A program made the translations under genes and the position numbers. The notes under the pieces were generated by a model. The model did no database searches. It was not told the DNA's origin and saw nothing but the letters and a program-made list of their open reading frames with translations. From a bacterium (GTDB taxonomy: Bacteria; Actinomycetota; Acidimicrobiia; Spongiisociales; JAENVV01), in the NCBI GenBank assembly GCA_024639975.1, contig JAHEFX010000014.1, forward strand, positions 1 to 32,770: a DNA stretch of 32,770 bases. Direction: 5' to 3'. Below are positions 2,870-11,913 of this stretch, one piece after another; the first letter of the stretch is position 1, and every line of letters begins with the position of its first letter.

Positions 2870-3493
2870 ATGGACATCGCCGTCAGCCTCGTCGAGGCCT
2901 ACCTCCGTGCAGCGGGCTACCTGACCCTCTCAGAGGTCGCCGTGTTCCGGATCGGTGCCGATGGGCGGTCGGAGAACGTCACGGACATCGACGTGGTCGG
3001 CCTCCGGCTTCCGGGGGATGTGGCCGAACCCGGACCCGAAGACGCCCATCCGGAGCTCGCCCTGTTGCGAGACCCGGTGCTCCAGATCGAGGACTGCATC
3101 GACATCATCATCGGTGAGGTCAAGCAGGGAGAGGCCCGGTTCAACAAGGCCATCCACTCGAGGGAGGCACTCCACTCGGTCCTGCACCGGGTTCGCTGGC
3201 TCTTCCCACCCGGTGGCGTCGACGAGACGCTCGAGGTCCTGAGCCGGGGTCGGACCCACACCATGAAGACTTGGGGGGATATGGACCTACGGGTCCGTCT
3301 CGTCGCCTTCGGCCAGTCGGACCGCAACGACGAGAACTTCATCGGCCACTCCCACATCCTCAAGGTCTCCACCGAGTACATCGAGCGGAACCTCGATGTC
3401 ATGCGGGGGGCGAAACCGTCCTCACCGGCGGCGCAGTTCCTCGTGTTGCTGGCCAAGACCGGCCATCACATCGGGAAGGACCTGGGTCCCTAG
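2870..3493 (+). CDS. Uncharacterised protein with possible PD-(D/E)xK nuclease signature
   Basis: A 207-aa soluble protein I cannot assign to a named family. The N-terminal half has the order expected of the PD-(D/E)xK nuclease fold: a helix with Glu22, a strand with TDIDVVGL (Asp41), then about 40 residues later a strand reading IIIGEVKQG (Glu83, Lys85). Glu, Asp and ExK are the catalytic pattern of Holliday resolvase-like and restriction-like enzymes. A nuclease role is inference only; some members of this fold are inactive or bind without cutting. The C-terminal half has no recognised motif. There is no signal peptide. The gene is probably transcribed from its own -10 box. Its TAG stop shares a CTAG with the stop of the convergent BtpA-like gene. 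Confidence 0.75.
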   Translation: MDIAVSLVEAYLRAAGYLTLSEVAVFRIGADGRSENVTDIDVVGLRLPGDVAEPGPEDAHPELALLRDPVLQIEDCIDIIIGEVKQGEARFNKAIHSREALHSVLHRVRWLFPPGGVDETLEVLSRGRTHTMKTWGDMDLRVRLVAFGQSDRNDENFIGHSHILKVSTEYIERNLDVMRGAKPSSPAAQFLVLLAKTGHHIGKDLGP

Positions 3494-4263
3494 ATCGAGG
3501 CCCGGACGACGGCTGCGGCCCGTTCCGGGTCGACCGGGTTCGTCGTGACCCCACCGGCCTTCGTCGACGTACCGACGATCGCTGCGTCGGCCACCTCCAG
3601 CAGGTCGGCAATCGTGTCAGGCGTCGCGCCCGATCCAATCACGACCGGCATGCCGGACGCGTGCTTCCTCACCACTCGTGCATCGGAGAGGTCCACCGCT
3701 TCGCCGGTGCCGGTGCCCGAGACGACGATGGCGTCTGCGCCGGAACGCTCGCCCATGTCCCGGACCGCTTGGACGAGCGTGAGCCCGGCCGGCGGGACGG
3801 CGTGTTTCACGAAGACATCGGCGAGGACGAGCCCATCCCAACCGAGCGCAGTCCGCTTGCGGGCCACCTCGGCGCCCCGCCCCTGGATGATCCCTTGATC
3901 GGTGTACATCGTCCCCGAGAGGACGTTGACCCGGATCATGGAAGCGCCGGTCGCGGCGGCAACGGATAGGGCGCCGAGGGCGTCGTTGCGAAGGACGTTC
4001 ACACCGATCGGCACGTCGACGGCGTCCGCCACCGATCCGACAGCACGCGTCATGGCCGTCAGCGTCTCGGACGGCACCTCGTCGGCGAAGAACGGAGCAT
4101 CGCCGAAGTTCTCGACCATGACCCCGCCGAAGCCGGCGTCCACCAAAGCCTTGGCGTCGGACACGGCTGCGTCGACCATCGCGTCGATGGAGCCGGCGAA
4201 CCCCGGTGCTCCCGGCAATGGCCCGAGGTGGACCATCCCGATGAGCTGGGGGAGGGATGCCAC
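3490..4263 (-). CDS. BtpA/SgcQ family TIM-barrel protein
   Basis: A 257-aa protein with the family opening GMVHLGPLPG at about residues 9-18 and the barrel motifs AGFGGVMVENFGDAPF, IGVNVLRNDA and VVSGTGTG. BtpA was named for a role in photosystem I stability in cyanobacteria, and SgcQ is a sugar-operon relative; in non-photosynthetic bacteria the reaction is unknown. The phosphate-binding-like end (VIGSGATPDTI, AIVGTSTK) suggests a phosphorylated ligand, which is inference. GTG-4263 begins one base after the stop of the upstream DinB-like gene, so the two are surely co-transcribed. No photosynthesis genes are nearby. Confidence 0.87.
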   Translation of the reverse strand: MASLPQLIGMVHLGPLPGAPGFAGSIDAMVDAAVSDAKALVDAGFGGVMVENFGDAPFFADEVPSETLTAMTRAVGSVADAVDVPIGVNVLRNDALGALSVAAATGASMIRVNVLSGTMYTDQGIIQGRGAEVARKRTALGWDGLVLADVFVKHAVPPAGLTLVQAVRDMGERSGADAIVVSGTGTGEAVDLSDARVVRKHASGMPVVIGSGATPDTIADLLEVADAAIVGTSTKAGGVTTNPVDPERAAAVVRASI

Positions 4264-4264
4264 G

Positions 4265-5026
4265 TCAATCGGTGACGTAGGCGGTCAGGAGCTTCAGGGC
4301 CTTCTCGGCGGCTTCGCCCTCGGCGACGACGCCCTCGGCCTTGGCCTCCTTCAACGTCGAGCGCTGCACCACGTAGCGGGCCATCGGCATGGCCGGACCC
4401 TTGATGCGGGGGGCGTCGACAGGGCCGAACGACCACTTGGCGTAGTTCGGGCCCATCGCCTCGATGCGCACGGGCTCGAAGGACTCACCGGCTTGCTTGA
4501 ACGCGACCGGGAGGACGCGGGAGGAGAGGAAGATGATGTGCTTGAGGCGCTCCGTTTCGGGGAGCATGTCCTCTTCGTCGTTGTTGCCCCAGATGTCCCA
4601 CACGTCGAGACCGTGAGCCCACGTCTCCATGATGCGGTAGGTGGCAAGGGTGCGGGCGGAGCAGTCGCCGCCGACCCACTCGACACGGTCGTCGGCCTCG
4701 AGGGACCAGAGGGCGTCCATGGCCCGGGCCCGGGAGAGCCGCCACCACTCGATGACGTCCTGGGGACGCATCGGCTTGCCCTTGTCCAGACCGGACTTCA
4801 CGAAGGCCTCGAATCCGCCGGCTTCGGCGACGAGCTCATCGGGGACGAGCTCCTCCTCGATGGCATTGGCCGTGAGGTCCTCGAACTGGGCGAGGTGGGC
4901 GACCAGGTTCTTGATGCTCCAGCCCTTGGCCTTGGTGGGCTTGCCCCACTCTCGAGGATTGATCTTCTGGAGGAACTGGTCGAGCGTCTGTTGCTCCTTG
5001 ACCAGGTCGGTCAGTATCTCTCGCAC
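4265..5026 (-). CDS. DinB/MDMPI-like metal-binding protein (TIGR03084-like)
   Basis: A 253-aa protein of the mycothiol-dependent maleylpyruvate isomerase-like (DinB) superfamily. The N-terminal four-helix bundle has the expected three metal ligands: His44 (VAHLAQFE), Glu134 and His138 (METWAHGLDVWD). A C-terminal domain follows from about residue 165. The resemblance is to the TIGR03084 subgroup of actinobacteria. Members often use mycothiol as a thiol cofactor, but the substrate here is unknown. GTG-5026 is chosen because TAGAAT lies 7 bases before it on the minus strand, giving a leaderless start. It leads a two-gene unit with the BtpA-family gene. Confidence 0.85.
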   Translation of the reverse strand: MREILTDLVKEQQTLDQFLQKINPREWGKPTKAKGWSIKNLVAHLAQFEDLTANAIEEELVPDELVAEAGGFEAFVKSGLDKGKPMRPQDVIEWWRLSRARAMDALWSLEADDRVEWVGGDCSARTLATYRIMETWAHGLDVWDIWGNNDEEDMLPETERLKHIIFLSSRVLPVAFKQAGESFEPVRIEAMGPNYAKWSFGPVDAPRIKGPAMPMARYVVQRSTLKEAKAEGVVAEGEAAEKALKLLTAYVTD

Positions 5027-5071: not shown

Positions 5072-6151
5072 CTACCAATCGCGATCGGCCTGGGCGGCGG
5101 TGAACGCGTCGCCGGGCAGACCGGTCCGGGCTTCGGCGAATCCGTTGAGTCGATCGATGAGCAATCGGAGTCGGCTGAAGTGGCGCCGGTCGAACGAGAA
5201 GGAAAGCCGCGGGAGGTCCACGACGTCGCCGTCGGCGACTTCCGGGGGCGTCGCCTCGATGCTCGAAATCACCCCTTCCGAGAGCAGGTCTCCGAACTCG
5301 TCGTTCAGCGCTGCCAACTGCGGTTCCGTGGGCGCTTGGCGGATTCGCAGGATGAGCCGTCCGTTGACGTACCGCTGCGAGTGGTAGTTGGCGTAGAACC
5401 CGCAGATCTCCGAGATCGCCTCGTCCAGGTCGTTCGTCACCACGTACAGCGAGCGGTCCTCGGATGAGATGAGTCCCTCACCGACGAGGTCGTCGGCGAA
5501 CGCCGCCCACTTGGTCCAGTAGTCGGTCCCTTCGGCTTCCACCAGGACGATGGGGTGCAGGTCCGACTTCCCCGTTTGCATCAGGGTGAGCAGTTCGTAG
5601 GTCTCGTCCATCGTCCCGAAGCCGCCGGGGAACAGTGCGAAGCCGTGGGCCTCCTTGACGAAGCCGAGCTTGCGGGTGAAGAAGTACTTGAAGTTGATCG
5701 TCTTCGCCGGGTCGAGGTACTCGTTGGCCGAGTCCTCGAACGGCAGGCGGATGTTCACGCCATAGGAGTGGTCCCGGCCGGCCCCCTCGTTCGCCGCCCG
5801 CATGATCCCGGGGCCGGCTCCGGTGATGATGCCCCAGCCGATCTCGGCCATCCGGCGGCCGAACTCCTTCGCCAGGACGTAGTTGGGATCATCGGACGGT
5901 GTCCGTGCCGACCCGAAGACCGTCACCTTCGGTTCGGTCTGGTGCTGGGCGAACACGAGCGATGAGTACCGCATCTCCTTCAGAGCGGTGTTGATCAGCT
6001 TGAGGTCACCTCTCGCGGGTTCATCACGCTGGAGCTTGACGGCCGTGGTCACGAGCTCGCGAATGAGGTCGTCGTTGGCACCGTCTCCGGCAGCTGCCAC
6101 CAGGTCGGCGATGGAGTCGTCGATGTCGGGGCGACGCGTCGAGTAGGTCAT
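5072..6151 (-). CDS. LOG-family (TIGR00730-like) Rossmann-fold protein, long form
   Basis: A 359-aa protein containing the LOG/'lysine decarboxylase' fold. Seen: a first strand KVTVFGSARTP (75-85), the phosphate loop GAGPGIM (111-117) and the signature PGGFGTMDE (175-183). LOG enzymes release free nucleobase cytokinins by cleaving ribose 5-phosphate from N6-substituted AMP; many bacterial relatives act as AMP/nucleotide hydrolases. This protein is much longer than classical LOG (about 190-220 aa), with about 70 extra residues in front and an extension of roughly 100 behind, so the exact substrate is unsure. I chose ATG-6151 (MTYSTRR) over a longer frame to 6286, because the longer form would run into the end of the upstream AAA gene and lacks coding character. 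A -10-like sequence sits just upstream. Confidence 0.88.
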   Translation of the reverse strand: MTYSTRRPDIDDSIADLVAAAGDGANDDLIRELVTTAVKLQRDEPARGDLKLINTALKEMRYSSLVFAQHQTEPKVTVFGSARTPSDDPNYVLAKEFGRRMAEIGWGIITGAGPGIMRAANEGAGRDHSYGVNIRLPFEDSANEYLDPAKTINFKYFFTRKLGFVKEAHGFALFPGGFGTMDETYELLTLMQTGKSDLHPIVLVEAEGTDYWTKWAAFADDLVGEGLISSEDRSLYVVTNDLDEAISEICGFYANYHSQRYVNGRLILRIRQAPTEPQLAALNDEFGDLLSEGVISSIEATPPEVADGDVVDLPRLSFSFDRRHFSRLRLLIDRLNGFAEARTGLPGDAFTAAQADRDW

Positions 6152-6206: not shown

Positions 6207-7199
6207 TCAGCCCCACGGGGCCGAGTCGGGTCCCTTGCGGACGACGGCATTCCACACCGTCTCGTAGTGGTCCCGGTCGTAGGCATCGACGTGGGGGAGC
6301 ACCATCGACTCCCACGCCCGCCGCAGCGGGTCGTCCGCCGTCTCGTGCAGGCGGAGACCGACCGGCAGGCGGTCGAGCGTCGCTCGGAGACTCATCGGGG
6401 TCTCCACCGACGTGCCGGAGTCCGTCGAGCCGAATGACTCGTTCACCTCGGTCGCCAACCGGACGATGGCCTCGATGTACGGCTCGGCGAGGTCGACATA
6501 GCGACGCTGGAGCATCGACGAGAGCTCGTCCTCGCTCGGGAAGTCCTTCTCCCAGATGACCCAGCGGTCGGCGAACGCCTTGTTGAGCGTCTGGGTGCCT
6601 GCGTAGTCGCGCAGGTCGGTGGGGTTCATGGTGCCGAAGACCCGCACGTCGTCGCGCAGTCGGACGGTCTCCCCGTTGGGGAGGTCGAGGGCATGGTGGC
6701 GGTCGAGCAGTCCGTGGAGTGCGAAGAGCGTCTCGGCACCGGCGGCGTTCAGCTCGGAGAGGTTGAGGATCGCCGGGCCGCGCAGGGCGCGAGTGATGTC
6801 GCCGTCCTCCCAGCGGCTCTCCGTGCCGCCCTTGCCGTCACCGTGCAGCTTCGTCGAGCCGATCAGGGTGATGTCCCGCACCTCGCCGGTGAGTGGGATG
6901 CGGAAGTAGGGGAGGTGGAGGAGCGCGGCGAACTGTTCGATGTCGTGGTCCTTGCCGGTCCCCATGTGACCGCGGACGGCGATGTGCTGGGGGGCGAGCC
7001 CGGAGCCGCCGTCGCGGCGCACCTTCTCGAGTGCCGCAAATCGATAGAGCATGCCGATGTCGACGTACCACGGGTCCGGTTCGGGGATCTTCGCCGCTCG
7101 GGACTCGAAGTCGGGCAGGTCGGTCGGGAGATCGAACGCGTCCAGTTCGATCGTTGGCCCCTCGCCGGTCGGGTCGGGGAAGCTCACGGTCTCGGCCAT
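6207..7199 (-). CDS. CobS-like MoxR-class AAA protein with altered Walker A and B
   Basis: A 330-aa AAA+ protein most like CobS/NorQ in layout. The P-loop reads GHMGTGKD (77-84) followed by HDIEQF, matching CobS GTGKSTHIEQ except that the Ser/Thr after Lys83 is Asp84. Walker B reads AILNLSELN (143-151): Ser148 replaces the Asp of the usual DE, while Glu149 is kept. Sensor 1 (FGTMNP, Asn192), a possible Arg finger (Arg212) and a C-terminal helical part with SLRA are present. I checked both altered motifs on the DNA. Mg-ATP handling should therefore be weakened or different. It starts one base after the stop of the HExxH-VWA gene, so the two are a unit. In relatives such pairs remodel metalloproteins or insert metals (known of CobS/T and NorQ/D); the target here is unknown. 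Confidence 0.87.
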   Translation of the reverse strand: MAETVSFPDPTGEGPTIELDAFDLPTDLPDFESRAAKIPEPDPWYVDIGMLYRFAALEKVRRDGGSGLAPQHIAVRGHMGTGKDHDIEQFAALLHLPYFRIPLTGEVRDITLIGSTKLHGDGKGGTESRWEDGDITRALRGPAILNLSELNAAGAETLFALHGLLDRHHALDLPNGETVRLRDDVRVFGTMNPTDLRDYAGTQTLNKAFADRWVIWEKDFPSEDELSSMLQRRYVDLAEPYIEAIVRLATEVNESFGSTDSGTSVETPMSLRATLDRLPVGLRLHETADDPLRRAWESMVLPHVDAYDRDHYETVWNAVVRKGPDSAPWG

Positions 7200-7200
7200 G

Positions 7201-9330
7201 TCAGGCGCTCCTACGGATGTCGGTTGATTGCGAATTGGGTACTCCGGCTGCTGCCCGCACCCACCAGGCGTCGAGGCCGGACATGGCGAGGCTCCGCCGC
7301 AGGGCGGATCGCACGCCGTCGACCATGGCGACGGTGAGGGCGTCGGGACGGTCCACGACTGCGTATCGGTGGTAGGTCCTGGTGACGGTGTCGTCCCCGA
7401 TCCCGATGCCGAGCACGGTCGTGCCGGCTTCTTCGATCTGGGTGACGGTCCTGGCGAGGGCGCTCAGCGAGCCGCGGGTCATGCCGTCGGCCAGGACCAC
7501 GAGGACCCGTACGTTCGCACCGAGCCGCTCGAGGCGGTCGGCGGCATGGCGGACATTGAACTCATCGACGTTCGCCGCCTTCTCGAACATCGCCAGCGGT
7601 GGCGCCTCGGCAGCGTTGCGACGGGCATGCTTCACCGACTCGGCCTGACGGCTGATGGTTTGGAAGAAGCCGGCGAGGAGGTGCTCGGATGTCCGCCAAC
7701 GCCGGTCGAACGGCTTGAGGAGGTAGTGGTTGACCGTTTGGGTGAGCCGATCGGCCGACGATCCCTGTGCCCGACGGAGCTCGGACGTCGCGTTCGCCTT
7801 GCGCCGCCGGTAGGACGCCTCGGTGTCATCGACGGCAGCAGCGAACCCGCGGTTGAACACGGCCAATTCGAAGTCGATCTGGAGGTCGTCGCACAGGTTG
7901 GCAAGCATCCAGGCCCCCAGCGTGGCTGCGGTCATGCCCCACCGCGTGTCGCGCGCCGAGTTGCGGTCCCGCGACTGGAGCATCGAGGCCGATCCGTCCA
8001 CCAGGAGGCTCACGGCGTAGGAGCGACGGGTGCGCATGGCTCGGCGCTCGTACATGCGGTCATACAGGCCGCCTGCCAACAGCAGTGGCGCATGCGGGCT
8101 CAGGTCGCCCGAGTCGTATCCGGATTGCAGGCCCCGCCGTTGGTTGGCGGCGAACAGCGGGAAGAGCTCACCGGTGACGTGTCGCTGGGTCAGGTTCCAC
8201 TGTTTGGTCAACGACTGCATGGTCGCTCGACCCTTGGGTGCCAGTTGCCCGAACGCAGCTGGGAAATCGGAGACCACGAGGCGCCCGGCTTGGCCGGTCG
8301 GGAGGTGGATCGTCGGGGCTGTGGAAACCCGGATGAGCTGGTCGGTCGCCTCCTGGCTGGCGACCTTCGACTCGCCCTGGCGGAAGGACTCGGCAGAGCG
8401 GGGCTGGCCGGCCGACCGGGTCCGTTCGTAGGAGTCCCGGTCGGCGAGGATCGGCGTCGTCAGCCGAAGGCGATCGAGGTTGGAGGTCGACGCTGCCGTT
8501 TCGGCTTCCTCGCGCTGCTTGCGCTGGGTCTCTGTCTCGCTCCCGTGCTCGATCCCGGTCAGGCCGTGGAGCTTGGCGACGGACAGCAGCTGGATCGCGA
8601 CGGTCCCGACATCCCAGGGGTCGTCGGCGTCGACGGCTGCGTCCATGAACGGCTGGGCATCGGGGAGAGCACCGGCGACCTTCGCGTGCACCCGGCGTTC
8701 CATGGTGTCCCGGTCGGCGTGGCCGCCCACGAGGACGAAGCAGGCAATGGTGAACTGGGCCATGAGCCCGGCGTCGGCGAGCGCCTGGGGCAGTGCCGAT
8801 CGGTAGAGGTCGGTGAGGACTGAGCGGGCGCCCGGGTAGGCAGAAAGGCCCTGCGTCTCCTGGCGGGCATCTTCCACGGCGAAGAACAGACCTTCCGCCT
8901 GGACTCCACCAGTGCGCCGGATTGCATCGAGGAGATCGAAGGTCCCATCGGGGATGTCGGCCTCCGGGCCGAGCCACTCGGCGGGGACCTCACGCCGCTC
9001 GTCGAGGTCGGTGGAGACGAGGTGCACGACCTCGTGGAGGGCCGAGGCGAGGGCCACTTCGTCGGGGGTGACCGGGGCTCGCCTCGCATACGCCGCCTGG
9101 AAGATCGCCGGGTCTACGACCACTTCTTCGTCGGAGGACGCCGATTCCGCCCCGACGCGCACGGCCAGTTCGTCGTTGCCGGCCAGGGTCCGGGCGAAGC
9201 GCGTGACCGCTCCGGAGACCCGCTGGTAGCGGGCCACCACCTGCTCGACGGCCCGTTCCTCGGGCTGGAGGATCTCGGTCAGGACGCTTCGTTCCTGCCT
9301 GGGTCCGCTTGGTCGGTTCCGCTCGGCCAT
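7201..9330 (-). CDS. CobT-like protein: HExxH metallopeptidase-like region plus VWA domain
   Basis: A 709-aa partner of the AAA gene. The N-terminal part has ALHEVVHLVS with HExxH at 99-103 and, about 50 residues later, AVEDARQE (Glu153), a plausible third zinc ligand as in gluzincin-like folds. A charged, low-complexity linker spans about 262-330. The C-terminal VWA domain has the MIDAS motif DGSAS (Asp445, Ser447, Ser449), later LVVLADGMTRGS and a final strand TTVLGIGIGDD. CobT- and NorD-type proteins pair with MoxR-class AAA proteins. The HExxH region suggests proteolysis or metal binding, which is inference. There are no membrane segments. ATG-9330 has a GACAAT 8 bases upstream on the minus strand and no Shine-Dalgarno site, so it is probably leaderless. 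No substrate gene is adjacent. Confidence 0.87.
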   Translation of the reverse strand: MAERNRPSGPRQERSVLTEILQPEERAVEQVVARYQRVSGAVTRFARTLAGNDELAVRVGAESASSDEEVVVDPAIFQAAYARRAPVTPDEVALASALHEVVHLVSTDLDERREVPAEWLGPEADIPDGTFDLLDAIRRTGGVQAEGLFFAVEDARQETQGLSAYPGARSVLTDLYRSALPQALADAGLMAQFTIACFVLVGGHADRDTMERRVHAKVAGALPDAQPFMDAAVDADDPWDVGTVAIQLLSVAKLHGLTGIEHGSETETQRKQREEAETAASTSNLDRLRLTTPILADRDSYERTRSAGQPRSAESFRQGESKVASQEATDQLIRVSTAPTIHLPTGQAGRLVVSDFPAAFGQLAPKGRATMQSLTKQWNLTQRHVTGELFPLFAANQRRGLQSGYDSGDLSPHAPLLLAGGLYDRMYERRAMRTRRSYAVSLLVDGSASMLQSRDRNSARDTRWGMTAATLGAWMLANLCDDLQIDFELAVFNRGFAAAVDDTEASYRRRKANATSELRRAQGSSADRLTQTVNHYLLKPFDRRWRTSEHLLAGFFQTISRQAESVKHARRNAAEAPPLAMFEKAANVDEFNVRHAADRLERLGANVRVLVVLADGMTRGSLSALARTVTQIEEAGTTVLGIGIGDDTVTRTYHRYAVVDRPDALTVAMVDGVRSALRRSLAMSGLDAWWVRAAAGVPNSQSTDIRRSA

Positions 9331-9419
9331 AACGGTCCATTGTCACACAAGCTGCCGATCAAGCGGCTCGCGGCCCCTGCCGCTCCCTTCGGTGTTCTTG
9401 CCGGGACACCCGGACGAAT

Positions 9420-9498
9420 CGAGGGCCCCCACCTACCGCTGGGGTAGGTGGGGGCCCTCGGAAGTGACCTTGGCGGTGGGTTGGAACCCTGGGTTCGG
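9420..9498. repeat. Intergenic repeat, copy B, with strong hairpin and GAACCCTGGGTTC palindrome
   Basis: Second copy of the element at 917-995, 57 of 79 positions identical with no gaps. Here the first part is a perfect 17-bp hairpin and the second is GAACCCTGGGTTC at 9484-9496. It abuts the stop codon (9499-9501) of the DUF4230 gene on the minus strand, the same placement as copy A has next to the patatin gene. Confidence 0.8.
9421..9459 (-). terminator. Perfect 17-bp hairpin, probable terminator of the DUF4230 gene
   Basis: The arm at 9421-9437 (GAGGGCCCCCACCTACC) pairs exactly with 9443-9459 around a 5-base loop. On the minus strand it follows the DUF4230 stop by about 40 bases and precedes the VWA gene. 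There is no T-run, which is common for terminators in high-GC actinobacteria. Confidence 0.75.
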
Positions 9499-10197
9499 CT
9501 ACGGCAGGACGGTGATGGTCTCGTAGCCGAAGGCTTCGGCGAGGCTCTCCACCACGCTGATGGCCCGGTCGGTGGCCTGGTCGAGGACGCCGGCTTCGAT
9601 GGCCTTCTCCTCGAGCAGCCCTTCGGCGGCGAGCCGGGCTTCCTGTTCCAGCGCCGGGTCCGGGTTCACGAAGATCCCGAGATCCCGGTCGTAGACCTCA
9701 CTGGCCGCCTCGTCGATGTCCACGTAGGTGATCACGGCGGGGGGCAACTGGATGGTGATCTCGCCGGTCATCGGGTCCGCGAGGACGTCCCCGGGGCCGA
9801 TCTCGGAGAGGTCGATACCGGCTCCGACGTTGGCGACGGCCAGGAGGCCGATCTTCTCGCCGGTCGCCCAGTTGAGGAGCCCGGCGTCGACACCGCGCTC
9901 CACGGTCACGAAGGCGGCCGCCTCGGCCGTTGTCAGCTCGGACATGCCGATGATCGCCTCGATGACCACGGCGCCGTCCTTGGCGATCGGCTCGGGCAGG
10001 ATCGGGGCGAGGACCTCTTCGGTGAGGGTCACGGCCTCGTCGGCTGCTTGGCCGGCAGCCCAGACGGCGAGGGCCAGAGCGCCCGTCACGAGCACGAGGA
10101 GGGACAGGAGCACGATGAGGACCCGAGAGGTGCGCTTGGCTGGAGGCGCAGGCTCGGGGCGGGTCTCGACATCGGAAGGGGGGAGCTGCAAGGTCAT
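9499..10197 (-). CDS. DUF4230 family membrane-anchored protein
   Basis: A 232-aa protein with a Pro-rich N-terminal cytoplasmic tail (about 1-20), one transmembrane helix (about 21-46) and an outside domain. The outside part has the DUF4230 pattern: a strand ending IGLLAVANVGAGIDLSEI, then GEITIQLPPAVITYVDID, VYDRDLGIF, and a C-terminal helix with repeated Ala/Glu ending in GYETITV. The family's function is not known. ATG-10197 is chosen because the hydrophobic anchor then sits at the N-terminus and the longer frame upstream covers the divergent promoter. Single gene, closed by a strong hairpin, and divergent from the MaoC-kynureninase operon. Confidence 0.85.
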   Translation of the reverse strand: MTLQLPPSDVETRPEPAPPAKRTSRVLIVLLSLLVLVTGALALAVWAAGQAADEAVTLTEEVLAPILPEPIAKDGAVVIEAIIGMSELTTAEAAAFVTVERGVDAGLLNWATGEKIGLLAVANVGAGIDLSEIGPGDVLADPMTGEITIQLPPAVITYVDIDEAASEVYDRDLGIFVNPDPALEQEARLAAEGLLEEKAIEAGVLDQATDRAISVVESLAEAFGYETITVLP

Positions 10198-10258
10198 GGG
10201 GATGACGATAGAAACGGTTCGCCTATACGAATCGGTTCCCACGTAGCTTTGAAGACTC

Positions 10259-10265
10259 AAGGAGG
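10259..10265 (+). promoter_or_regulatory. Shine-Dalgarno AAGGAGG of the MaoC-like gene
   Basis: AAGGAGG lies 4 bases before ATG-10270. With TATACG further upstream at about 10225-10230, this is one of the few clearly leadered operons here. The shared gap with the DUF4230 gene also has an imperfect inverted repeat, GGTTCG...CGAATC, around that -10. Confidence 0.6.
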
Positions 10266-10269
10266 CAAC

Positions 10270-10716
10270 ATGTCCTACGAAGCCCTGAAGGCACTCGAGG
10301 GTCAGGAGATCGGCGTGAGCGACTGGTTCACCGTCGACCAGGACCGTATCGACGCCTTCGCCGATGCCACGATCGACCACCAGTGGATCCACGTCGACCC
10401 GGAGAAGGCCGCGGCCGGCCCGTTCGGGACGACGATCGCCCATGGGTTCCTCACCCTCAGCCTGATCGTCCACTTCCAGAGTCAGGTGGAGCTACCGGTC
10501 GAGGGAGTCCGGATGGGCATCAACTACGGACTCGACAAGGTCCGGTTCATCACCCCCGTGCCCGCCGGCGGTCGGATCAGGGGCCGACGAGCCGTGGCCG
10601 AGGTCACCGAGACCGGCGACGGGGCGGTGCAGGTGAAGAGCCTCGTGACCGTCGAGCTCGAAGGAGCGGAGCGTCCCGCCTGCGTCGCCGAGGGCATCGC
10701 CAGGCTCTACTTCTAG
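10270..10716 (+). CDS. MaoC-like dehydratase / (R)-specific enoyl-CoA hydratase
   Basis: A 148-aa single hot-dog domain protein. The hydratase-2 motif is seen at residues 33-46: ATIDHQWIHVDPEKA, with Asp36 and His41 as the catalytic pair, then PFGTTIAHGFLTLSL. This family adds water to trans-2-enoyl-CoA; the NodN-like subgroup fits the sequence best. It is the first gene of a tight three-gene run: the next ATG begins immediately after its TAG stop. The pairing with kynureninase suggests an aromatic or acyl-CoA degradation setting, but this is inference. Confidence 0.88.
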   Translation: MSYEALKALEGQEIGVSDWFTVDQDRIDAFADATIDHQWIHVDPEKAAAGPFGTTIAHGFLTLSLIVHFQSQVELPVEGVRMGINYGLDKVRFITPVPAGGRIRGRRAVAEVTETGDGAVQVKSLVTVELEGAERPACVAEGIARLYF

Positions 10717-11913
10717 ATGGAGCCGGGCGCCCTCGCCGACCGGTTCGTCGTCACCGACCCCCAGCTGGTCTACCTCGACGGCAACTCGCTCGGTCGGCTG
10801 CCGCAGGCGGCGGCCGACCTCGGTGTCGACCTCGTCGCCCGGCAGTGGGGCGACCGGCTCATCCGAGGCTGGAACGAGGGATGGTTCGACCTGCCGGAGC
10901 GGCTTGGCGACAAGATCGCCGGCCTCATCGGTGCTCGCCCGGGTGAGGTGACGGTCGCCGACTCGACGACCATCAACCTGCACCGTTTGGCCACGGCGGC
11001 CCTCACGGCCCGGCCCGGCCGCCGGGTCATCGTCACCGACGACCTCAACTTCCCGAGCGACCACCACGCCCTGGGAGCGCTCGGGGCCGAGTTGCGCATC
11101 ATTCCCTCGGATGGCATCCACGGCCCGGTCGACGACCTCATCGAGGCGCTCGACGACGATGTCGCGCTCCTCTCGCTCTCGGCCACGGCCTATCGGAGCG
11201 GATACACCTACGACCTGCCACCTCTCGCCGGGGCCGCCCACGGCGTCGGGGCCCTCGTTCTCTGGGATCTGTCCCACACCGCCGGTTCCATCCCCGTGGA
11301 CCTGACCGGCGGGGACGCCGACCTGGCGGTCGGGTGCTCGTACAAGTACCTGAACGGGGGCCCGGGCGCCCCGGCCTGGCTCTATGCGCGGTCCGAGCTC
11401 CAAGCGAACCTCCTGAACCCGCACGCCGGCTGGATGGGTCACGCCGACGTTTTCTCCTTCTCGGCCGAACATGTGCCGGCCACCGGCATCCGTCGGTTCC
11501 GGACCGGCACCCCACCGGTCGTGTCGATGGCACTCATCGAACCGGGGGTCGATCTGATCGCCGAGGTCGGGATGGAGGCCATCCGAGCAGCATCCCTTCG
11601 GCTCACCGATCGGCTCCTCCGCTGGTTCGACGACGAGATGGAGCCGCGGGGGATGGGACTGGCGAGTCCGCGGGACCCGGCGGTCCGGGGCGGTCACATC
11701 ACGCTCACCCATCCCGAGGGCCTCGCCGTCGACCTCGCTCTCCTCGAGGCAGGCGTGGTCCCCGACTTCCGTCCGCCGGGCGGGATCCGGTTCGGTCCGT
11801 CGCCGCTCTATACGACCCTCGACGAGGTCGACCGGGCCATGACGGTCCTCGTCGAGATCCTGGACTCGGGCCGATGGGCCAAGCACCGGGACGATGATGT
11901 CGTGGTGACATGA
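10717..11913 (+). CDS. kynU: Kynureninase
   Basis: A 398-aa fold-type I PLP enzyme, the usual length for kynureninase, which splits kynurenine (or 3-hydroxykynurenine) into anthranilate (or 3-hydroxyanthranilate) and alanine. Family blocks seen: YLDGNSLG (19-26), GWNEGWFDLP, the PLP-binding aspartate region LVLWDLSHTAGSIPVDL, the lysine motif CSYKYLNGGPG with Lys210 as Schiff base, and GWMGH and GTPPVVSM further on. The start directly abuts the MaoC stop. Tryptophan dioxygenase and a typical kynurenine formamidase are not in the window; the next gene is a hydrolase but with an Asp nucleophile. Confidence 0.94.
   Translation: MEPGALADRFVVTDPQLVYLDGNSLGRLPQAAADLGVDLVARQWGDRLIRGWNEGWFDLPERLGDKIAGLIGARPGEVTVADSTTINLHRLATAALTARPGRRVIVTDDLNFPSDHHALGALGAELRIIPSDGIHGPVDDLIEALDDDVALLSLSATAYRSGYTYDLPPLAGAAHGVGALVLWDLSHTAGSIPVDLTGGDADLAVGCSYKYLNGGPGAPAWLYARSELQANLLNPHAGWMGHADVFSFSAEHVPATGIRRFRTGTPPVVSMALIEPGVDLIAEVGMEAIRAASLRLTDRLLRWFDDEMEPRGMGLASPRDPAVRGGHITLTHPEGLAVDLALLEAGVVPDFRPPGGIRFGPSPLYTTLDEVDRAMTVLVEILDSGRWAKHRDDDVVVT

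Follow-up and report, generated by a model that had tools for sequence, protein, structure and literature searches.

A lineage-wide AAA+/VWA gene pair of Acidimicrobiia with apparently exchanged Walker A and Walker B residues

Our analysis concerned a two-gene unit in a 32,770-nucleotide stretch of DNA (contig JAHEFX010000014.1 of assembly GCA_024639975.1; the whole stretch is called the window) from a bacterium of the class Acidimicrobiia with a draft genome of 2.35 Mb. The unit encodes an AAA protein and a partner that combines an HExxH motif with a VWA domain. In the AAA protein, Asp84 takes the place of the Ser/Thr that normally follows the Walker A lysine, and Ser148 that of the Walker B Asp. 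This looks like a reciprocal exchange, from Ser/Thr to Asp at the position after the lysine (K+1) and from Asp to Ser in Walker B, and it is fixed in a whole clade. The pair may remodel a client much as NorQD does, with an ATPase whose Mg site is rearranged yet working.

The altered nucleotide site and its conservation

The following features of the AAA gene were considered:

6207..7199, minus strand: AAA protein of 330 amino acids, by prediction a MoxR-class AAA+, with K-D in Walker A and S-E in Walker B (Pfam AAA_5, 2.7e-14)
6948..6971, minus strand: Walker A GHMGTGKD, residues 77-84, where D84 replaces Ser/Thr; 124/124 distinct orthologues read K-D
6753..6758, minus strand: Walker B S148-E149, with Ser in place of Asp and the catalytic Glu kept; S-E in 123/123 distinct orthologues covering the site
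6624..6626, minus strand: sensor-1 Asn192, invariant in alignments A1 and A3, phage relatives included
6564..6566, minus strand: candidate Arg finger R212 (FADRW), invariant in the orthologues and nearly so when phage CobS-like rows are included

An earlier interpretation made from the letters of the window alone, here called the sequence-only reading, had pointed to Lys83-Asp84 and Ser148-Glu149, and our analysis confirmed both (Walker A G77-HMGTG-K83-D84, Walker B N146-L-S148-E149-L-N). Sensor 1 and the candidate Arg finger, which it took to remain, are also present, and R212 aligns with the R of the CobS motif mDRW. Lys83, Glu149, Asn192 and R212 are all kept in the orthologues.

By its AlphaFold2 model (mean pLDDT 87.7) the AAA protein is a MoxR-class (helix-2-insert) AAA+ protein nearest to NorQ and CbbQ. 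The top 20 Foldseek matches of the model were all NorQ and CbbQ proteins, with a TM-score of ~0.8 by target length and ~20-23% identity. Sequence matches among solved structures included midasin, CobS, CbbQ and NorQ. The best PHROG and NCBIfam affinity was to CobS, at 54.7 bits far below the NCBIfam cut-off of 558.55, and a weak match to GvpN also stayed far below its cut-off. The proposal that the P-loop has CobS-like surroundings is thus supported in the form of a CobS/NorQ-like AAA+ fold. In place of the GK[S/T] and DE motifs canonical for the MoxR class, K-D and S-E were found in every distinct orthologue that covers the site.

A search for orthologues that was independent of the motif covered 395 genomes of the class. 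Orthologues were found in 165 of these, nearly all in the order of the window and in addition in a family (f12) of genomes of 0.6-1.1 Mb. A DNA pattern for the exact GHMGTGKDHD occurred in 164 of the 395 genomes, and the single ortholog-bearing genome listed without it carries GHRGTGKD and has thus kept K-D. In 110 loci Walker A follows [R/K]GHMGTGKDHD[I/L]E and Walker B reads ...SELNA, and the orthologues of the small-genome family (57-60% identical) agree with these motifs. Asp84 and Ser148 vary by codon and not by residue, both Asp codons and both Ser blocks (TCN and AGY) being in use. Among 98 sequences, the small-genome family included, all 12 nucleotide-site positions tested were invariant, as compared with 113 of 330 positions (34%) overall (p ~2e-6). 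The DHD stretch after Lys83 is invariant as well and unlike that of relatives. The Asp84/Ser148 subfamily is real, and the 124 distinct orthologues with K-D rule out a sequencing error or a single-strain change. The partner is constant across the clade, and no homologue with the same neighbour and normal motifs was seen inside it. The term 'degenerate', which the sequence-only reading had used for the ATPase, is not supported as it stands, since the site is under very strong constraint and each of its changes mirrors the other.

The nearest relatives outside the clade belong to a family (f85) from another part of the phylum. They are 35-40% identical to the AAA protein and have GKT with E-E, while further relatives, MoxR-like proteins and CobS-like phage proteins, combine GK[S/T] with D-E or E-E. 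In a tree the K-D/S-E sequences formed one group of two subclades with moderate support (84/69), the outgroups being long-branched. A single origin followed by fixation is the simplest reading of these sequences. Neither an intermediate with just one of the two changes nor an independent second origin was found, in a survey of P-loop families that was not exhaustive, and the open-access literature yielded no report of an AAA+ protein with Asp at K+1. A viral origin was rejected, as viral contigs held no close relative and only CobS-like phage proteins of 23-32% identity. The sister pairs of f85 differ from ours in genomic context too. In one of them (locus L157 of genome G667, at 6217-8652 and 8949-11537) the canonical relative has an HExxH...LEDARxE-VWA neighbour and the pair lies directly upstream of molybdenum hydroxylase genes. 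In two others (L158 and L159 of genomes G435 and G600) it lies amid genes for a CobW GTPase, a RACo-type activator, URO-D and B12-binding proteins, which is a corrinoid methyltransferase context.

The HExxH-VWA partner

The partner gene and its features are as follows:

7201..9330, minus strand: partner protein of 709 amino acids, with a predicted N-terminal helical HExxH domain, a linker and a C-terminal VWA domain
9022..9036, minus strand: HExxH motif, residues 99-103, on predicted helix 89-106; kept in 84/84 gap-free rows
8872..8874, minus strand: E153, possible third metal ligand (VEDARQE), on predicted helix 133-161; kept in 81/85 aligned rows
7986..8000, minus strand: MIDAS DGSAS, residues 445-449, invariant columns in alignment A2, with D615 as the later MIDAS Asp

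An HExxH-VWA gene was present at 110/110 ortholog loci, it precedes the AAA gene in the loci checked, and the pair is also kept in the small-genome family. The single base that separates the two genes, read earlier as a tie between them, is true of the window and local to it, since the genes overlap by ~8 bases in most orthologous pairs. Identity to the small-genome orthologues is 57-60% for the AAA protein and only ~28-38% for the partner, so the adaptor has diverged far more than the motor.

Profile matches of the VWA part and of an N-terminal stretch to CobT-type families are weak, and Pfam matches to the CoxE and CobT VWA domains are sub-threshold. With a mean pLDDT of 70 the model of the partner is modest, and by predicted fold its VWA part comes nearest to NorD and to the MIDAS domain of midasin. 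The sequence-only reading had called the MIDAS complete. This holds for D445, S447, S449 and D615, which are invariant in A2, and for the MIDAS Thr there is an invariant candidate, T532.

The HExxH motif and Glu153 reported earlier are both present and are conserved across the order; in the predicted N-terminal domain they lie on consecutive helices. The gluzincin pattern of HExxH with a downstream Glu on a helix is recognizable at the motif level, and the zinc site is putative. In the small-genome family the positions of HExxH and Glu read VHEAIH and SIEEK, with an apparent misalignment of the Glu by one residue. HExxH is also found beside canonical ATPases. The partner of the GKT relative in G667 reads LHELGH...LEDARVE, and DHEVGH occurs in a CobT-like phage protein that neighbours a CobS-like ATPase with GKT. 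A peptidase-like partner, put forward earlier as distinguishing the unit, is thus shared with these relatives. Because they carry the domain, we regard it as a component that CobT-like adaptors have inherited; it may be a metal site, and we do not take it to indicate a protease.

Proposed mechanism and alternatives

In P-loop NTPases the K+1 Ser/Thr binds Mg2+ directly and forms a hydrogen bond with the Walker B Asp. Strict conservation of both residues, and inactivation when either is lost, have been reported (PMC9599734). Because of this hydrogen bond the exchanged residues would face each other. As each has been replaced by the class that is normally opposite, one hydroxyl and one carboxylate would be left at the Mg site, to judge from the alignment and the known geometry. 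Asp84 would supply the carboxylate and Ser148 the hydroxyl, in reverse of the normal pair. Mg2+ or another divalent ion may then be ligated directly by Asp84, with Glu149 positioning the water.

NorQD depends on ATP hydrolysis, which rotates the VWA adaptor and opens the client for metal insertion, and on its Walker B and MIDAS residues (PMC13036017, PMC9976466). On account of its fold and gene pairing our unit should work broadly in the same way. The MoxR-class ring would bind the VWA domain of the adaptor, and ATP turnover would move this protein, whose MIDAS and N-terminal domain would hold and remodel a client and might at the same time load it with a metal held by the HExxH...E site. NorQ and NorD provide the best structural matches of the AAA fold and the VWA domain, they too form a two-gene pair, and NorD has the same layout of N-terminal domain, linker and C-terminal VWA domain (PMC9976466, PMC13036017). 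Our pair differs from them in K-D/S-E, in the N-terminal HExxH domain and in the absence of a nor operon; no nor operon genes were found beside it in the window or in ~100 loci. Sequence similarity to midasin/Rea1 is detectable for the AAA modules and for the MIDAS domain, although midasin is a eukaryotic single-chain ring of six modules that serves ribosome assembly.

With a probability of about 0.5 we prefer a remodeller of the NorQD kind, its ATPase working with a rearranged Mg site, to a ring that binds ATP and is dead for hydrolysis. The very strong constraint and the mirror-image changes make a rearranged working site no less likely than a dead one; the latter could drift freely, yet the tested positions have not moved. 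The two changes were fixed together in 123/123 distinct orthologues. The pair persists in ~1-Mb genomes despite the presence there of a separate CoxE-type VWA protein. The latter was found in 11/11 genomes tested, and hence the altered pair is kept in addition to an ordinary one. That the motor still hydrolyses ATP with the divalent ion ligated directly by the K+1 Asp is a more tentative proposal, held at slightly under even odds. Several points weigh against a working rearranged site. The contact between Asp84 and Ser148 is carried over from homologous proteins, replacement of either residue is reported to abolish activity in known enzymes (PMC9599734), and an Asp beside the phosphates could repel ATP. 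Furthermore, the exchange occurs in only one clade and thus offers no independent co-variation, and a conserved site can serve binding without hydrolysis.

A rival reading is a pseudo-ATPase ring that lacks turnover: ATP binding would drive its assembly and lock the VWA adaptor onto the client, and conservation would reflect nothing but binding and subunit contacts. The residues exchanged here are those whose loss abolishes the activity of known P-loop enzymes (PMC9599734), and Walker B mutants of NorQ still bind ATP and form stable rings (PMC13036017). Such a ring would, however, give no reason for the invariant Glu149, Asn192 and Arg-finger candidate, nor for a substitution at each site that is exactly the residue class of the other. 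We regard it as the strongest competitor, although a clearly less probable one than a working remodeller. The P-loop might also serve another ligand, for instance ADP only or another phosphate compound with Mg. The invariant DHD after Lys83, unlike that of relatives, is in line with this, and a review of polyphosphate kinase 2 (PPK2), which is another P-loop fold, places Mg2+ at Walker A and/or Walker B near a catalytic Walker A aspartate (PMC8776046). As an exact precedent PPK2 fails: in Francisella tularensis PPK2 Asp62 precedes Lys66, which leaves a loose analogy. Since the Arg finger, sensor 1 and the predicted MoxR fold are kept, as fits a nucleotide motor, we consider a different ligand improbable.

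With regard to the partner, the conserved HExxH and Glu on two helices of the predicted N-terminal domain could be those of a gluzincin-like peptidase fed by the AAA ring, that is, an ATP-dependent zinc protease. This is unlikely, if marginally less so than a different ligand. CobT-like partners of canonical CobS/MoxR-like ATPases carry the same domain, the motif has decayed to HGLGR in the sister partners of G435 and G600, and neither Pfam nor the fold search gave a peptidase match for the partner. Moreover, an HExxH module suits the binding or carrying of metal as well as proteolysis. Least probable by far is a chelatase of the CobNST or Mg-chelatase type, which would insert metal into a tetrapyrrole. 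Sequence affinity to CobS/CobT is seen in the AAA protein and in the VWA domain and N-terminal stretch of the partner, and the phage CobT-like protein likewise has HExxH. In contrast to CobS/CobT, our pair has a CobS score below the cut-off and altered Walker motifs, and the large subunit CobN/ChlH (PF02514) was absent from 14/14 pair-bearing genomes, complete and small ones alike, whereas control genomes were positive as expected. The known cobalto- and Mg-chelatases are thereby ruled out, unless a wholly different large subunit exists.

Genomic setting and significance

Three genes that follow the pair were compared across the loci:

5072..6151, minus strand: LOG-family (possible lysine decarboxylase) gene, likely start 6151 (Pfam Lysine_decarbox, 5e-25); same strand downstream in 78 loci
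4265..5026, minus strand: MDMPI_N/DinB-like gene (Pfam MDMPI_N, 1.1e-23); follows the pair on its strand in 74 loci and is kept in the small-genome family
3490..4263, minus strand: BtpA-family gene (Pfam BtpA, 8e-78); follows the pair on its strand in 59 loci and is kept in the small-genome family

The earlier view that no target gene lies nearby overlooks this arrangement: across the order, most loci have the three genes behind the pair and on its strand. Position alone makes them leads to a possible client. A metal triad in the MDMPI_N neighbour was discarded as proof of a metal-loading client, its first His not being conserved. Beyond the BtpA gene, a gene for a protein of 207 amino acids without a Pfam match (2870-3493, plus strand) is conserved on the opposite strand in 23 loci. 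Upstream of the pair lies a gene for a membrane-anchored-looking DUF4230 protein (9499-10473, minus strand); it was found near the pair in only 4 other loci and is probably not part of the system.

Genes for an M16 peptidase, DapB, DapA and FtsK are located upstream on the other strand. Because these are conserved, the pair occupies a stable chromosomal position and not a mobile island. A defence system was dismissed in view of this core position and because PADLOC gave no match to an anti-phage defence model. Maturation of molybdenum hydroxylases, an idea derived from G667, was dropped as a general role since PF02738 is absent from five small genomes and from the single-contig, 69%-complete genome G313. 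Promoter, terminator and Rfam scans yielded nothing usable.

According to one account, no proton-handling residues of P-loop NTPases other than the K+1 Ser/Thr and the Walker B Asp are strictly conserved, and the two make up a universal catalytic module (PMC9599734). A core gene that has both exchanged, fixed over 164 genomes, would put this idea to a direct test. If the site is active, the chemistry tolerates a reversed pair and the lineage harbours a natural exception among P-loop NTPases; if it is not, we have a clear example of an entire lineage that retains a MoxR ring dead for hydrolysis. In both cases, a defined and expressible AAA+/VWA pair from abundant uncultured Actinobacteria becomes available. 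Kept by one whole branch of this group, it offers a rare natural test of how such motors work.

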